From Sedimentimonas flavescens (lineage in GTDB: Bacteria; Pseudomonadota; Alphaproteobacteria; Rhodobacterales; Rhodobacteraceae): 64,000 nt of DNA. The translations under genes were made by a program, and so were the position numbers. How positions within the stretch are numbered: the first letter of the stretch is position 1; the number at the start of each line of letters is the position of its first letter. The notes beneath the pieces are model-generated. The model was not told the origin of the DNA and did not search any database. It saw only the letters and a list, made by a program, of their open reading frames with translations. Shown here piece by piece: positions 3,934 to 58,610 of this stretch. The stretch covers positions 124,001-188,000 of the forward strand of contig NZ_JAHVAI010000005.1 in NCBI RefSeq assembly GCF_019264375.1. Direction: 5' to 3'.

Positions 3934-4596
3934 TCAGAGACCCTCGGCGAGGGCAAGTCTGCGCAGGGAGGCGGCGTCGATGATCTCGACCGCACCGCGT
4001 TCTGTGTGCACCCATCCCCGGCGCGCGAAGGCGTCGAGGCGGCGCGAGACGACCTCGCGGGCGGTGCCGATCTGGGCGGCGATCTCGGATTGCGTGGCCT
4101 GCACCCGTCCGCCCTCGGCGCGGTTGCACAGGAAAGCGGCCAGGCGGCACTCGACCGACTGGAATGAGACACGCTCCATCAGCTGGATCATGCCGCCCAT
4201 CCGCTCGGCAAACGCGGTGAAGACGAGTTGGCGAAAAGCCGGGTCGCTGTCCATCAGCGACAGGAAGACCGGGCGGGGGATCACGATCGCGCGCGATTCG
4301 GTCGCGCAAAGCGCCTCGGCGGAATAGCTGGCGTCGCCGCCCAGCAGGCCCAGGGTGGTCTGCACGCAGGTCTGCCCCGGCTCGACCGCATAGAGCAAAA
4401 GCTCGCGCCCGCCGGCGCCGGTCAGGAAGACCTCAATGCGGCCCGAAAGGATGACGGGGAAGCCCGTGACGTCATCGCCGGGGCGGTAGATGACGGCCCC
4501 GCGCGGCAGCGCCATCGGTTGCAATGCACCAAGGCGCGCCTTGCTGGCGGGGGAGAGGGCGCTGAGGCTAGGTGTGTCGGTGATCCAATCGGTCAT
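3934..4596 (-). CDS. Crp/Fnr-family transcriptional regulator
   Basis: A 220-residue regulator with an N-terminal cyclic-nucleotide-binding-like beta barrel (about 25-110), a dimer helix (120-145) and a C-terminal winged helix-turn-helix (about 160-215). The recognition helix reads REVVSRRL, giving the E-x-x-S-R pattern of FNR rather than the E-x-x-G-R of CRP. It lacks the N-terminal cysteine cluster of FNR, so it should not carry the FNR iron-sulfur cluster. Its four cysteines are 77, 97, 150 and 157. The ligand is unknown; thiol or persulfide sensing is a guess from the DUF2892 neighbour. The start has only a weak ribosome-binding site. Confidence 0.85.
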   Translation of the reverse strand: MTDWITDTPSLSALSPASKARLGALQPMALPRGAVIYRPGDDVTGFPVILSGRIEVFLTGAGGRELLLYAVEPGQTCVQTTLGLLGGDASYSAEALCATESRAIVIPRPVFLSLMDSDPAFRQLVFTAFAERMGGMIQLMERVSFQSVECRLAAFLCNRAEGGRVQATQSEIAAQIGTAREVVSRRLDAFARRGWVHTERGAVEIIDAASLRRLALAEGL

Positions 4597-41447: not shown

Positions 41448-42518
41448 TCACGCGCCGTCACGCATTGTTTCCCGGCCCCGCTCGTGTCGCACGCCACGCA
41501 GGCCCAGGGCGACCATCCGACGCGCTAAAGGTGGCGAAAGCGGCTGTGAGGGGGGGGTGATCAGAAGTCTTCCGAACAGCGCACGGTAGTCTTCGCTCAG
41601 TAACAATTCCTCGATCCGGGCCTTGCGCCAGACAACCGCCTGCGCGTGAAGCGCGCCAAGGGCCGGATCGGCCATCAATTTGCGCAGGATCGGGGCCACG
41701 CGCGAATCATGGCGAAGGATCGACTCGTCGGTTTCGGCGCAGAAATTGCGCTCCACCCAATAGCCCATGTCGAAGGACGCGCCCTCGCGGTTGGCGCGAC
41801 CGCGCGCGCATTTGAGCAGATAGCTCTGCATCGCGCCAAGCGCGTAGTGGTTCAACTGGACCAGTTCGTGGTTGTTCTGACCAAGGGGCGTGAAGATGCG
41901 CCCGCGCCGGTAGCTGGCGGGCAGCTCGCGCCCCGATCCGTCGAACCAGCGGCTTGCGTCAATGCGCTTCGGGTCGGGCTGGCGGGGGCGATGGACGCCC
42001 AGTTTTCCGTAGCTGCCATTGTTGCGAAACAGCGTCTTGAAGAGGCCCGACCGCCAAGGCCAGGCCATGACCGAGGGGGAGGCAAGCCGAAACTGATCGC
42101 GCAGCGGGCGATCTTCATAGTCGATCACGCCCGCATTGCCGAAAAGCCGCCACGTCAGCGTGATCGCGGTGGCCTCGGGCAGAGTGTCGGTCAGTGCCGT
42201 CAGCGTGCCGTCGCCCGTGTGAATGTTGACGAACTCGTCGATGTCGAGCACCGCGATCCAGTCGGCGGTTTGGCGCAGCGGGTGCTTGTCAGCGGCCTTC
42301 AGCGCGGCCCATTGTGGCCCCTCGCGCCAGGGACCGGGATTGCGCACATGCGTCAGCCATCCCAACTGCGCCAGCCGGTCCAGCATGGCATCCGTTCCGT
42401 CGTCGCAATCGTTGGAAAACACGAGGAAATCGGTGAACCCCACCGCGCGGTGGTGGGCCAGCCATTCCAGCAGGAAGGCTGCCTCGTTCTTGACGGTCAG
42501 GATTGCCAGAAAACGCAT
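41448..42518 (-). CDS. Glycosyltransferase, GT2/GT92-like
   Basis: A 356-residue protein of the family annotated as GT2/DUF23 in this group. It has an N-terminal LTVKNEAAFLLEWLAHHRAVG (nucleotide-sugar fold start) and the metal-binding D-x-D in WIAVLDIDEFVNIH (near 92). Further marks are the block GYWVERNFC and a basic C-terminal region. It should transfer a sugar, acceptor unknown. ATG 42518 follows AAGGGTG; it is divergent from the candidate small RNA and shares its upstream region. Confidence 0.83.
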   Translation of the reverse strand: MRFLAILTVKNEAAFLLEWLAHHRAVGFTDFLVFSNDCDDGTDAMLDRLAQLGWLTHVRNPGPWREGPQWAALKAADKHPLRQTADWIAVLDIDEFVNIHTGDGTLTALTDTLPEATAITLTWRLFGNAGVIDYEDRPLRDQFRLASPSVMAWPWRSGLFKTLFRNNGSYGKLGVHRPRQPDPKRIDASRWFDGSGRELPASYRRGRIFTPLGQNNHELVQLNHYALGAMQSYLLKCARGRANREGASFDMGYWVERNFCAETDESILRHDSRVAPILRKLMADPALGALHAQAVVWRKARIEELLLSEDYRALFGRLLITPPSQPLSPPLARRMVALGLRGVRHERGRETMRDGA

Positions 42519-42611
42519 GGCACACCCTTGCACCCTTGGACAGGGATTCGCAAATGCGCGGAGACATCAAGCTGTGCTCGCCAAAATGTCGCAGGCACCG
42601 CCGCAGCGCAA

Positions 42612-42625
42612 TTGACCTAAGTCAA
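42612..42625 (+). promoter_or_regulatory. FNR-type box before the candidate small RNA
   Basis: TTGAC-CTAA-GTCAA is a perfect inverted repeat fitting the FNR/FnrL consensus TTGAY-N4-RTCAA. Its centre (42618.5) is 41.5 bases before base 42660, where the RNA stem begins, and TATCAG at 42648-42653 is placed as a -10. This is the class II FNR activator geometry. Confidence 0.75.
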
Positions 42626-42659
42626 AGAGAATGGACACGCCCAGTCGTATCAGAAGACT

Positions 42660-42787
42660 ATCAGGTTCCTGATCTCCCTGAACCGCGGCCTAGCCGCACG
42701 AACCTGATAAGCGGACCTAGGACGTTCTCCCTCGTCCCGTCCCTAAAATGCGCTGCGGGCCTCCCTCCCGCAGCGCTTTAATTTTTT
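42660..42787 (+). ncRNA. Candidate FNR-controlled small RNA with three CUCCCU motifs
   Basis: No protein is encoded here. The inferred ~128-nt transcript has a 9-10 bp closing stem (42659-42668 with 42700-42709) containing an inner hairpin (GCGGC-CTA-GCCGC, 42685-42697). An unpaired region follows, then a 10-bp terminator hairpin. CUCCCU occurs three times (42674, 42727, 42761): between stems, in the open region and in the terminator loop. Such repeats pair with Shine-Dalgarno sequences in trans-acting sRNAs. Start site and expression are inferred from the promoter layout only. Confidence 0.7.
42750..42787 (+). terminator. Terminator of the candidate small RNA
   Basis: A perfect 10-bp stem, GCGCTGCGGG with CCCGCAGCGC, and loop CCTCCCT are followed by TTTAATTTTTT. 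It is the strongest intrinsic terminator in the window on the plus strand, although no protein gene precedes it. That is why I looked for an RNA gene. Confidence 0.92.
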
Positions 42788-42805
42788 GCGGTGCCCGCGC
42801 AATTT

Positions 42806-43648
42806 TCACTGCCGGTCCGTGCGCTTGTCCTGAGCCATCAATTGGCTGACAAGCGCATCGGGAAGGGCGTCTTGGGCATAATCGAAGGTGCCAGAGTCGC
42901 GCACCTCCTGTGCGGCGCGCATCAGGGCGCCAAGTGCCGCGCGGGCGAAGGAACCGCCGACACTGATCCGCCGAACGCCCGCCTCGGAAAGCTCTTGCAC
43001 CGTGTAGCTCCGGCCCTTCAGGCCCATCACTACGTTAACGGGTTTGTCCACCGCGCGGCACACGGTTCTGATCGCCTCAATGTCCGGCAGACCCGGAGCG
43101 TAAAGCACATCCGCGCCGGCCTCGGAGAAGGCTTGCAGGCGCTTGATCGTGTCGGACAGATCCGGTCGCCCCCAGAGGTAGTTCTCGGCCCGTGCCGTCA
43201 GCAGGAACGGCAGGTCGCGCGCGGCCTCAGCAGCGGCCTGAATGCGCTCAACCGCTTGGGAAAGATCATAAATCGGCGCGTCGTCTGCGCCGGTTGCATC
43301 CTCGATCGAGCCTCCGACGAGGCCGACCTCGCAAGCCATCCGGATCGTCTCGGCGCAGATCTCGGGCTGTGCGCAGAAACCGTCCTCAAGATCGGCCGAC
43401 ACGGGCAGGTCGGTCGCGGCGACGATCTCGGCCGCGTTCGCGATGATCTCGTCGCGCGTCAGGGCAGAGAAGGAATCCCGCTTGCCTTTTGAGAAGGCAT
43501 ATCCGGCGCTGGTGGTCGCAAGTGCTTCAAAGCCCAAACTGGCCAGCAACCGCGCAGAGCCCGCGTCCCAAGGGTTGGGAATGACGAACGCGGAATCGCG
43601 GTGATGCAGTGCTTTCAGGCGTTCGAACTTTGTGCGCTGATCCGGCAT
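42806..43648 (-). CDS. Isocitrate lyase/PEP mutase superfamily enzyme
   Basis: A 280-residue TIM-barrel protein of the PEP mutase/isocitrate lyase superfamily. It opens FERLKALHHRDSAFVIPNPWDAGSARLL (in parts) and has PVSADLEDGF (metal-binding DLED, near 86), GGSIEDATG and LTARAENYLWG. The catalytic K-[KR]-C-G-H of isocitrate lyase is absent, so carboxyPEP-mutase or oxaloacetate/2-methylisocitrate-like activity is possible but unproven. A 29-base inverted repeat covers its ribosome-binding site. It converges on the candidate small RNA. Confidence 0.84.
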   Translation of the reverse strand: MPDQRTKFERLKALHHRDSAFVIPNPWDAGSARLLASLGFEALATTSAGYAFSKGKRDSFSALTRDEIIANAAEIVAATDLPVSADLEDGFCAQPEICAETIRMACEVGLVGGSIEDATGADDAPIYDLSQAVERIQAAAEAARDLPFLLTARAENYLWGRPDLSDTIKRLQAFSEAGADVLYAPGLPDIEAIRTVCRAVDKPVNVVMGLKGRSYTVQELSEAGVRRISVGGSFARAALGALMRAAQEVRDSGTFDYAQDALPDALVSQLMAQDKRTDRQ

Positions 43649-57221: not shown

Positions 57222-58610
57222 ATGGAAACCGTCATTCTCTTCACCATGGTGGTCGGCTTCATGCTGATCGGCGTTCCGATCGCCATCTCGCTCGGCCTCA
57301 GCTCGATCCTGTTCCTTCTGTGGTATTCTGATACCTCGCTGGCCTCGGTCGCGCAAACGCTTTACCAGTCGATGGAAGGGCACGCGACGCTGCTGGCAAT
57401 TCCGTTCTTCATCCTGGCCTCCAGCTTCATGTCCACCGGGGGCGTGGCGAAACGGATCATCCGCTTTGCGATCGCCTGCGTCGGGCACCTGCCGGGCGGC
57501 CTGGCCATCGCGGGCGTCTTCGCCTGTATGCTCTTCGCGGCGCTTTCTGGTTCGTCGCCCGCGACCGTGGTTGCCATCGGTTCCATCGTCATCGCGGCGA
57601 TGCGTCAGGTGGGCTACTCCAAGGACTTCGCGGCAGGCGTGATCTGTAACGCCGGTACGCTCGGCATCCTGATCCCGCCCTCGATCGTGATGGTGGTCTA
57701 TGCCTCGGCCACTGACGTTTCGGTCGGGCGCATGTTCCTTGCCGGCGTCATTCCGGGCCTTCTCGCAGGCTTCATGCTGATGGCGACGATCCTGATCATC
57801 GCGATCCGCAAGAACCTGCCCAAGGGCGAGTGGCAGGGCTGGGGCGAGATATTCGACTCGTTCAAGGATGCCTTCTGGGGTCTGATGCTGATCGTCATCA
57901 TCATGGTGGGCCTCTACGGCATCCCGGGCATCACCGCGGGTATCTTCACTCCGACCGAGGCCGCCGCCGTCGCCGCCGTCTACGCCTTCTTCGTCGCGAA
58001 CTTCATCTACCGCGACATGGGGCCGCTGGACGAGGGCGAACAGAAGCTGCCGCTGTGGAGAAAACCGCAGGCGATCATCACCGCCTTCTTCCACCCGGCA
58101 ACCAAGGCGACCCTGTTCGAGGCCGGCAAGCTGACCGTCACCTTGATGTTCATCATCGCCAACGCCCTGATCCTCAAGCACGTCCTGACCGACGAGCAGA
58201 TCCCGCAAAAGATCACCGAGGCGCTTCTGGGCGCGGGTCTGGGTAAGATCATGTTCCTCGTGATCGTGAACGTGATCCTGCTGATCGGCGGTCAGTTCAT
58301 GGAACCCTCGGGGCTGATCCTGATCGTCGCGCCGCTGGTCTTCCCAATTGCGATCGAACTGGGCGTGGACCCGATTCACCTCGGCATCATCATGGTGGTG
58401 AACATGGAGATCGGGATGATCACGCCGCCCGTGGGCCTCAACCTCTTCGTGACCTCGGGCGTGGCCGGCATGCCGATCATGCGGGTCGTGAAGGCGGCGC
58501 TGCCCTTCCTTGCGGTGCTCTTCGTCTTCCTGATCCTGATCACCTATGTACCCTGGCTCAGCACGGTGCTGCCGACGGCCGTCATGGGACCCGAAGTGAT
58601 CGTGAAATAA
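57222..58610 (+). CDS. dctM: TRAP transporter large permease DctM
   Basis: The 462-residue protein is the sodium-coupled translocating subunit, with twelve or more helices. Visible marks are LLAIPFFILASSFMSTGGVAKRII (in parts, near 58), LSGSSPATVVAIGSIV (near 108), GTLGILIPPSIVMVVYA (near 147) and EIGMITPPVGLNLFVTSGVAG near the C terminus. It begins three bases after the dctQ stop and ends the operon; a terminator follows 30 bases later. Confidence 0.95.
   Translation: METVILFTMVVGFMLIGVPIAISLGLSSILFLLWYSDTSLASVAQTLYQSMEGHATLLAIPFFILASSFMSTGGVAKRIIRFAIACVGHLPGGLAIAGVFACMLFAALSGSSPATVVAIGSIVIAAMRQVGYSKDFAAGVICNAGTLGILIPPSIVMVVYASATDVSVGRMFLAGVIPGLLAGFMLMATILIIAIRKNLPKGEWQGWGEIFDSFKDAFWGLMLIVIIMVGLYGIPGITAGIFTPTEAAAVAAVYAFFVANFIYRDMGPLDEGEQKLPLWRKPQAIITAFFHPATKATLFEAGKLTVTLMFIIANALILKHVLTDEQIPQKITEALLGAGLGKIMFLVIVNVILLIGGQFMEPSGLILIVAPLVFPIAIELGVDPIHLGIIMVVNMEIGMITPPVGLNLFVTSGVAGMPIMRVVKAALPFLAVLFVFLILITYVPWLSTVLPTAVMGPEVIVK

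Follow-up and report, generated by a model that had tools for sequence, protein, structure and literature searches.

The intergenic locus and its promoter

The window, i.e. the whole 64-kb stretch of DNA analysed here, belongs to a genome of 3.38 Mb in 62 contigs. Within it, a gap separates two minus-strand genes, one for a glycosyltransferase and one of the PEP-mutase type. The initial annotation had described this gap as holding an ordered set of signals for a small RNA, and the sequence, the predicted fold and a terminator scan agree that all the named features are present and correctly placed, see Table 1. The RNA is encoded on the plus strand, so that it points away from the glycosyltransferase gene and heads toward the end of the PEP-mutase-type gene; it is therefore the leader of neither. 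A short coding RNA was considered and rejected: the ATG seen in the transcript (42748) is part of the terminator base, and many homologues have ACG there. In a DNA search with positions 42580–42800 the closest genome, G006, matches with 94% identity over 207 of 221 bases.

Table 1. Features of the small RNA locus (positions in the window).
Feature	Positions	Strand	Evidence and remarks
RegA/PrrA-type box TCGCCAAAATGTCGC	42578–42592	+	RegA ChIP matrix; TGTCGCA spacing fixed in 22 of 22 strong homologues
FNR/FnrL box TTGACCTAAGTCAA	42612–42625	+	centred at -41.5; exact match; kept in 22 of 22 strong homologues
-10-like element TATCAG	42648–42653	+	-12 to -7 for the predicted start 42660
Small RNA gene, predicted transcript about 127 nt	42660–42786	+	fold z -6.9; 112.7 bits; homologues
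Hairpin 1	42660–42708	+	long stem 42660–42668 with 42700–42708; inner hairpin 42685–42697; fold and covariation
CUCCCU copy 1	42674–42679	+	internal loop of hairpin 1
Hairpin 2, loop UUCUCCCU	42710–42744	+	fold; covariation in two helices
CUCCCU copy 2	42727–42732	+	loop of hairpin 2
Intrinsic terminator and T tract	42750–42787	+	hairpin 42750–42776, loop CCUCCCU; fold, terminator scan
CUCCCU copy 3	42761–42766	+	terminator loop

The FNR box is, as had been noticed, a perfect palindrome, and it is the sole exact TTGACN4GTCAA in the 64 kb; with at most one mismatch, 4 such sites are found in the window against 0.85 expected. Its centre is at 42618.5, and class II spacing then gives a +1 at 42660, for which the -10-like element stands in the class II position that had been claimed for it. 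The TA of this element recurs in most of 20 aligned upstream regions. No sigma-70 consensus promoter was found in 42500–42830, which fits an activator-dependent promoter. The box lies at the class II position in front of a stand-alone RNA gene, the arrangement expected of an FNR-activated small RNA. Under a matrix built from the FnrL sites tabulated in PMC4634722 (29 distinct of 32 rows) the box is the second-ranked place in the window. The top score goes to an FNR-like site at 58143, but this site was rejected as it lies inside a long frame, 57222–58610, by eye a TRAP permease.

The initial annotation overlooked a putative RegA-type box further upstream (42578–42592). Under a matrix made from the 33 R. 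capsulatus RegA ChIP sequences listed in Table 2 of PMC5359404, this box is the best of 127,972 window positions. Its core, CAAAATGTCGC, is present in 2 of these 33 sequences and once in the window, and most of the 20 aligned regions have CCAAAATGTCGCA or a near form at this place. The host genome has a RegA protein (323.9 bits in the family search, cut-off 250) as well as an FNR-type protein whose cysteines, judged by eye, fit FnrL. Elsewhere in the window, a Crp/FNR-type DNA-binding domain is encoded on the minus strand at 3955–4146 (55.4 bits).

A conserved RNA gene family in relatives

The predicted RNA represents a gene family that is conserved in relatives and reaches no Rfam threshold. 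The DNA search found a match in 18 of 101 genomes, the host included. Among the 18 genomes of the same genus 15 have a match, and the other 3 gave none in this search.

More distant homologues were sought with a covariance model, R2, which covers the RNA only, has a hand-set three-hairpin structure and was built from 10 of 19 loci, the window's own RNA not among them. Left out were five loci that MAFFT had misaligned (L001, L002, L010, L013 and L017), two that are identical to L006 (L008 and L009), the fragment L019, and L018, which lacks the word used for cutting out the RNA. A first model, R1, was set aside as the MAFFT consensus fold missed the long stems at misplaced gaps. Under R2 the window RNA scores the 112.7 bits given in Table 1, although its sequence took no part in building the model. 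At E 0.001 the model matches 20 of 295 family genomes, 9 of the 20 above 60 bits, i.e., the family is patchy. The 11 weaker matches (27.8–40.4 bits) are insecure, and several of them resemble ordinary terminators. The reason for caution is a model search of 68 loci, in which some of the 86 matches fall on the opposite strand of the same, true terminator and score as high as 27.3 bits.

An exact pattern consisting of the FNR box, the spacing and the terminator loop is present in 40 named records. Their titles refer to Rhodobacteraceae, Paracoccaceae, Rhodobacterales or their genera, apart from one Alphaproteobacteria bin and one Sphingomonadales. The named carriers include R. capsulatus, R. viridis, R. 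aestuarii, R. maris, several Thioclava, Phaeovulum, Frigidibacter, Defluviimonas and Actibacterium. A looser pattern hits 15 of 394 family genomes, while the same pattern reversed hits 0. The gene infC is usually convergent: 25 of the 40 named loci have it downstream in convergent orientation, at 70–2,064 bases, 1 has it on the opposite side, and the examined stretch of the remaining 14 showed none. Three genomes with diverged candidates (G041, G406 and G419) have an FNR box and several CTCCC convergent with infC, at a distance of 5.4–8.9 kb that makes the support weak. Among 20 infC-adjacent regions examined, 3, preselected by pattern hits, have an FNR box followed by several CTCCC and 17 do not. 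One of the loci of G406 (L234:5423–5831) contains an FNR box, then several CUCCC and three consecutive model matches, an arrangement that looks like an array expanded from the single RNA.

The RNA is not described in the literature searched, which was mostly open-access and covered in its main text; an unnamed entry in an R. capsulatus transcriptome table is possible. Many small RNAs of R. capsulatus await study according to a passage in PMC11089165.

Conservation in relatives had been named in the initial annotation as a check on its reading, and this check turned out in its favour, as box, spacing, stems and loops are all kept, with compensatory changes. TTGA-N6-TCAA is found 32–34 nt and TGTCGCA 71–73 nt before the model start in 22 of 22 homologues above 60 bits. 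These 22 strong loci, from the DNA search and the RNA model, were examined together with 11 weak ones, 33 in all. The clean part of the count is smaller because the DNA query (42580–42800) included the promoter: 11 of the 22, the host's own included, were found by the RNA alone, i.e., 9 (again with the own locus) from the covariance model and 2 more (G010 and G005) whose alignments start at base 81, past both boxes. Only 4 of the 11 weak loci have an exact TTGA-N6-TCAA.

The RNA folds at -54.5 kcal/mol, compared with -31.7 for shuffled sequences. The long stem with its 5' arm at the predicted start 42660 and the inner hairpin, both proposed before, are seen in the fold and kept in relatives; the perfect 10-bp terminator with its T tract likewise held up, its ten pairs closing a loop of 7 nt and being followed by TTTAATTTTTT. 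For the study of covariation we used an alignment, A4, of 32 rows from 32 loci among the 68, without loci duplicated across collections and without any match weaker than E 1e-10. Twelve of these rows came from the pattern search that demands an FNR box, and the promoter count above was made without them. Over the 32 homologues, pair counting finds 95.6% of the cells paired, and both partners change in 17 of the 32 base pairs. None of 500 shuffles is as high on any of five pairing measures, and control structures slid by 1–3 columns have only 36–49% of their cells paired. The alignment was fitted to the structure under test and so favours it; still, the long stems are very variable, for example with GC in 19 and AU in 12 rows at one pair. 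Both-sided changes are found in 8 of 9 pairs of the long stem of hairpin 1 and in 7 of 10 pairs of the two helices of hairpin 2, while the terminator has 100% of its cells paired.

These hairpins leave the same motif exposed. Three CUCCCU are found in 27 of the 32 homologues, two in 3 and four in 2. The mean unpaired values over the homologues are 0.85, 0.99 and 1.00 for the three copies and 0.31 for the remaining RNA. All three therefore occupy unpaired places, the terminator loop among them, as had been predicted, with the first, in an internal loop, slightly less open. In the window as a whole CTCCCT is not enriched (16 found, 27.7 expected), yet 3 of the 16 fall within 93 nt here. The comparison of relatives shows the predicted gene, its structure, the open motifs and the two conserved boxes. 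In 10 of the 32 homologues (L017, L022, L025, L026, L028, L046, L055, L056, L062 and L071) the inner hairpin of the first stem also has a CTCCC in or near its loop.

Proposed regulation and target leads

Judging from these features, we consider it likely that the locus encodes, as a gene of its own, a non-coding small RNA that acts by base pairing, is controlled by FnrL and RegA, and represses mRNAs with an AGGGAG site at low oxygen. AGGGAG is a Shine-Dalgarno sequence and the partner of CUCCCU, so that the RNA has a conserved single-stranded motif complementary to ribosome-binding sites, as a seed would. We infer the following course of events. When oxygen falls, FnrL would bind the box at -41.5 and RegA (PrrA) the other box, whose start is further upstream by 34 bp; jointly they would activate the gene, with a transcript running from about 42660 to the terminator at 42776–42786. 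The hairpins would keep the three CUCCCU motifs open, and these may then pair with Shine-Dalgarno sequences of the AGGGAG type and so prevent certain mRNAs from being translated. The RNA would in this way probably turn off selected proteins when oxygen is low, and the repressed set probably includes genes of aerobic or carbon metabolism.

Leads to such targets come from TCAGGGAGA, the partner of the hairpin 1 loop. Followed by an ATG after 2–11 bases, it occurs 96 times in the 18 genus genomes and 2 times for the reversed pattern, which was the sole control, and this excess mostly shows that AGGGAG is used as a Shine-Dalgarno sequence; moreover, 14 of the 96 sites are the RNA gene itself and two were counted twice. 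Sixty of the 96 places were examined, and for each shared group a family search identified one member. The shared sites precede genes for an NADP-dependent malic enzyme (4 genomes), RpoH (3), a UbiH/UbiF hydroxylase (3) and a DapA-type enzyme (3). UbiH-type hydroxylation uses oxygen, which would fit a shut-off at low oxygen. The host genome has only 5 sites, among them those of an acyl-CoA dehydrogenase, a TRAP binding protein and an ion-channel-type protein, and none of the five lies before the four gene types shared by the other species. The list is to be read as leads, because Shine-Dalgarno sites are conserved for their own sake too.

A wider interpretation can also be proposed, which we regard as quite possible without quite favouring it. 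The RNA would then represent an oxygen-controlled small RNA family, undescribed in the searched literature, in which FnrL and RegA inputs meet at one promoter and three identical anti-Shine-Dalgarno loops silence oxygen-dependent and carbon metabolism mRNAs. In part of the Rhodobacter group, including a species that lacks a photosynthetic reaction centre, it would correspond to FnrS, and its candidate mRNAs, taken from the relatives, would be those of the UbiH-type ubiquinone hydroxylase, the NADP malic enzyme and RpoH.

FNR-controlled small RNAs are known in enterobacteria and Neisseria. FnrS presumably has an Rfam family, and no FnrS-type family was matched in the Rfam search of the window. 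In the passages of PMC8139620 and PMC5362039, FnrS of Escherichia coli and AniS/FnrS of Neisseria are small RNAs made through FNR or under oxygen limitation; they belong to other host classes. In Rhodobacter, the direct link of PcrZ to FnrL is in doubt, as stated in PMC8139620. The presence of the gene in R. capsulatus, a classic model of redox control with published ChIP-seq for FnrL (82 peaks, PMC4634722) and RegA (61 peaks, PMC5359404), makes the claim testable in existing data and in a strain that is easily handled in the laboratory. The family could also account for some unexplained FnrL binding: passages in PMC4263372 report 13 R. sphaeroides FnrL sites outside the upstream regions of annotated genes, and passages in PMC4634722 report 34 R. 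capsulatus FnrL peaks without a change in neighbouring expression.

Other readings and known small RNAs

The alternative that survives best, although we think it unlikely, is that the RNA is a member of the ar14/CcsR family, with its CCUCCUCCC loops, that has come under FNR control. NfeR1 of Sinorhizobium meliloti (ar14, RF02344) is described in PMC10746234 as an RNA of 123 nt with three hairpins, each with an unpaired anti-Shine-Dalgarno motif. The window RNA has three such hairpins, and their loops recall both NfeR1 (PMC10746234) and SmelA075 in the account of PMC3927594. The U tail at the end of the ar14 Rfam model counts as a further likeness, and the ar14 match is full-length and in the right place. 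However, it is weak, with 26.1 bits here and 31.5 in a Thioclava homologue, far from the gathering score of 58.8. The unpaired motif of the three hairpins is CUCCCU rather than CCUCCUCCC, and simple membership was rejected on score (26.1, homologues up to 31.5) and loop. The control differs as well, with LsrB and NtrC acting on NfeR1, while FNR and RegA boxes precede the window RNA. GC hairpins with C-rich loops could moreover have two independent origins. At E 1 the ar14 model has a match in 38 of 61 genomes searched, and 10 are over the threshold, mostly with tandem copies.

The host genome itself has a separate ar14-like array on contig 3 (L239, 86415–86877), whose best copy reaches 57.9 bits. 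Its loops are CCUCCUCCCU, which favours the ar14/CcsR reading, but the array has no FNR box in the 1.5 kb examined. It has ten CCTCCTCC/CTCCCT motifs and lies behind a small frame that, by eye, looks like ccaF1. We take these copies to be the counterpart of CcsR1-4 (RSs0680) of Rhodobacter sphaeroides, and CUCCCU is common to this presumed counterpart and the window RNA. The passages on CcsR used for the counterpart reading are those in PMC8307010 and PMC3927594. CcsR1-4 resemble the window RNA in their anti-Shine-Dalgarno loops and their Rhodobacter-type host; they differ in being transcribed with ccaF1 and processed from that transcript (PMC8307010), while the window RNA stands as one gene behind an FNR promoter of its own. 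It is present as one DNA copy in the host genome, between the glycosyltransferase and PEP-mutase-type genes, and not as copies behind and processed with a ccaF1-type gene. From the likeness in layout and these differences from both definitions, we conclude that the RNA probably works like these families but stands outside them. In G262 a further ar14-like RNA (L029:1501–1616, 54.2 bits) has three loops reading UCCUCCC, and its 130 upstream bases contain no FNR box.

A second alternative, slightly more doubtful than membership of ar14/CcsR, gives the RNA a single main mRNA target, or another RNA or a protein as its partner, in place of many Shine-Dalgarno sites. GATCTCCCTGA is invariant in 15 homologues, if not in all the distant ones, and this exceeds the length required for a plain Shine-Dalgarno match. 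PMC12559287 describes a sponge RNA of Caulobacter that captures UUUCCUCCCU RNAs. Against this, the same motif stands in three copies in three loops, which speaks for several targets, as in the preferred reading of a repressor of AGGGAG-site mRNAs.

It is very improbable that only the end hairpin matters, as a terminator for the convergent neighbour, with the remainder being drift. Such a role would agree with the 8 of 10 terminator pairs that never vary and with an L,D-transpeptidase gene match that ends 12–145 nt beyond the RNA in 9 of the 40 named loci; but hairpins 1 and 2 covary strongly, two promoter boxes are kept at fixed spacing, and the terminator scan gives no minus-strand terminator at the end hairpin.

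Finally, the initial annotation had left open a relation to PcrZ, the low-oxygen RNA of R. sphaeroides that tunes photosynthesis genes, and the sequence, the motif, the upstream box and the model search now answer that the RNA is no PcrZ homologue. According to passages of PMC8139620, the low-oxygen induction of PcrZ depends on both PrrA and FnrL, and the promoter of PcrZ is reported to contain a PrrA site; the same two regulators are suggested by the RegA/PrrA-type and FNR boxes of the window RNA. The comparison was made in G107, an R. sphaeroides-like genome with a PufX gene, which we take to be R. sphaeroides 2.4.1 or a near twin. The published 5' end of PcrZ is 2,565,820 (PMC6238624), and in G107 a CATAAT lies about ten bases upstream of it, which fits a transcription start at this coordinate. 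The 136 bases from this 5' end contain no CUCCC, the PcrZ region has 4.7 bits under the RNA model, which is noise level, and no TTGAYNNNNRTCAA is found in the 1 kb upstream. The best model match anywhere in G107 has 17.4 bits (E 0.46), and a missed homologue beside infC was rejected, as the 14 kb there have neither an FNR box nor a model match. PcrZ acts on photosynthesis genes, whereas the family search finds no reaction-centre match in the host genome, so the RNA can hardly serve photosynthesis there. A local form of PcrZ is thus the least credible reading of all, and homology is refuted if G107 is indeed R. sphaeroides 2.4.1 or a near twin and if the published coordinate fits its contig. 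The sole TTGAYNNNNRTCAA in the 2.2-kb stretch around PcrZ is downstream, an FNR box (L092:1207–1220) 186 bases after the PcrZ start and in front of a short membrane-protein-like frame.
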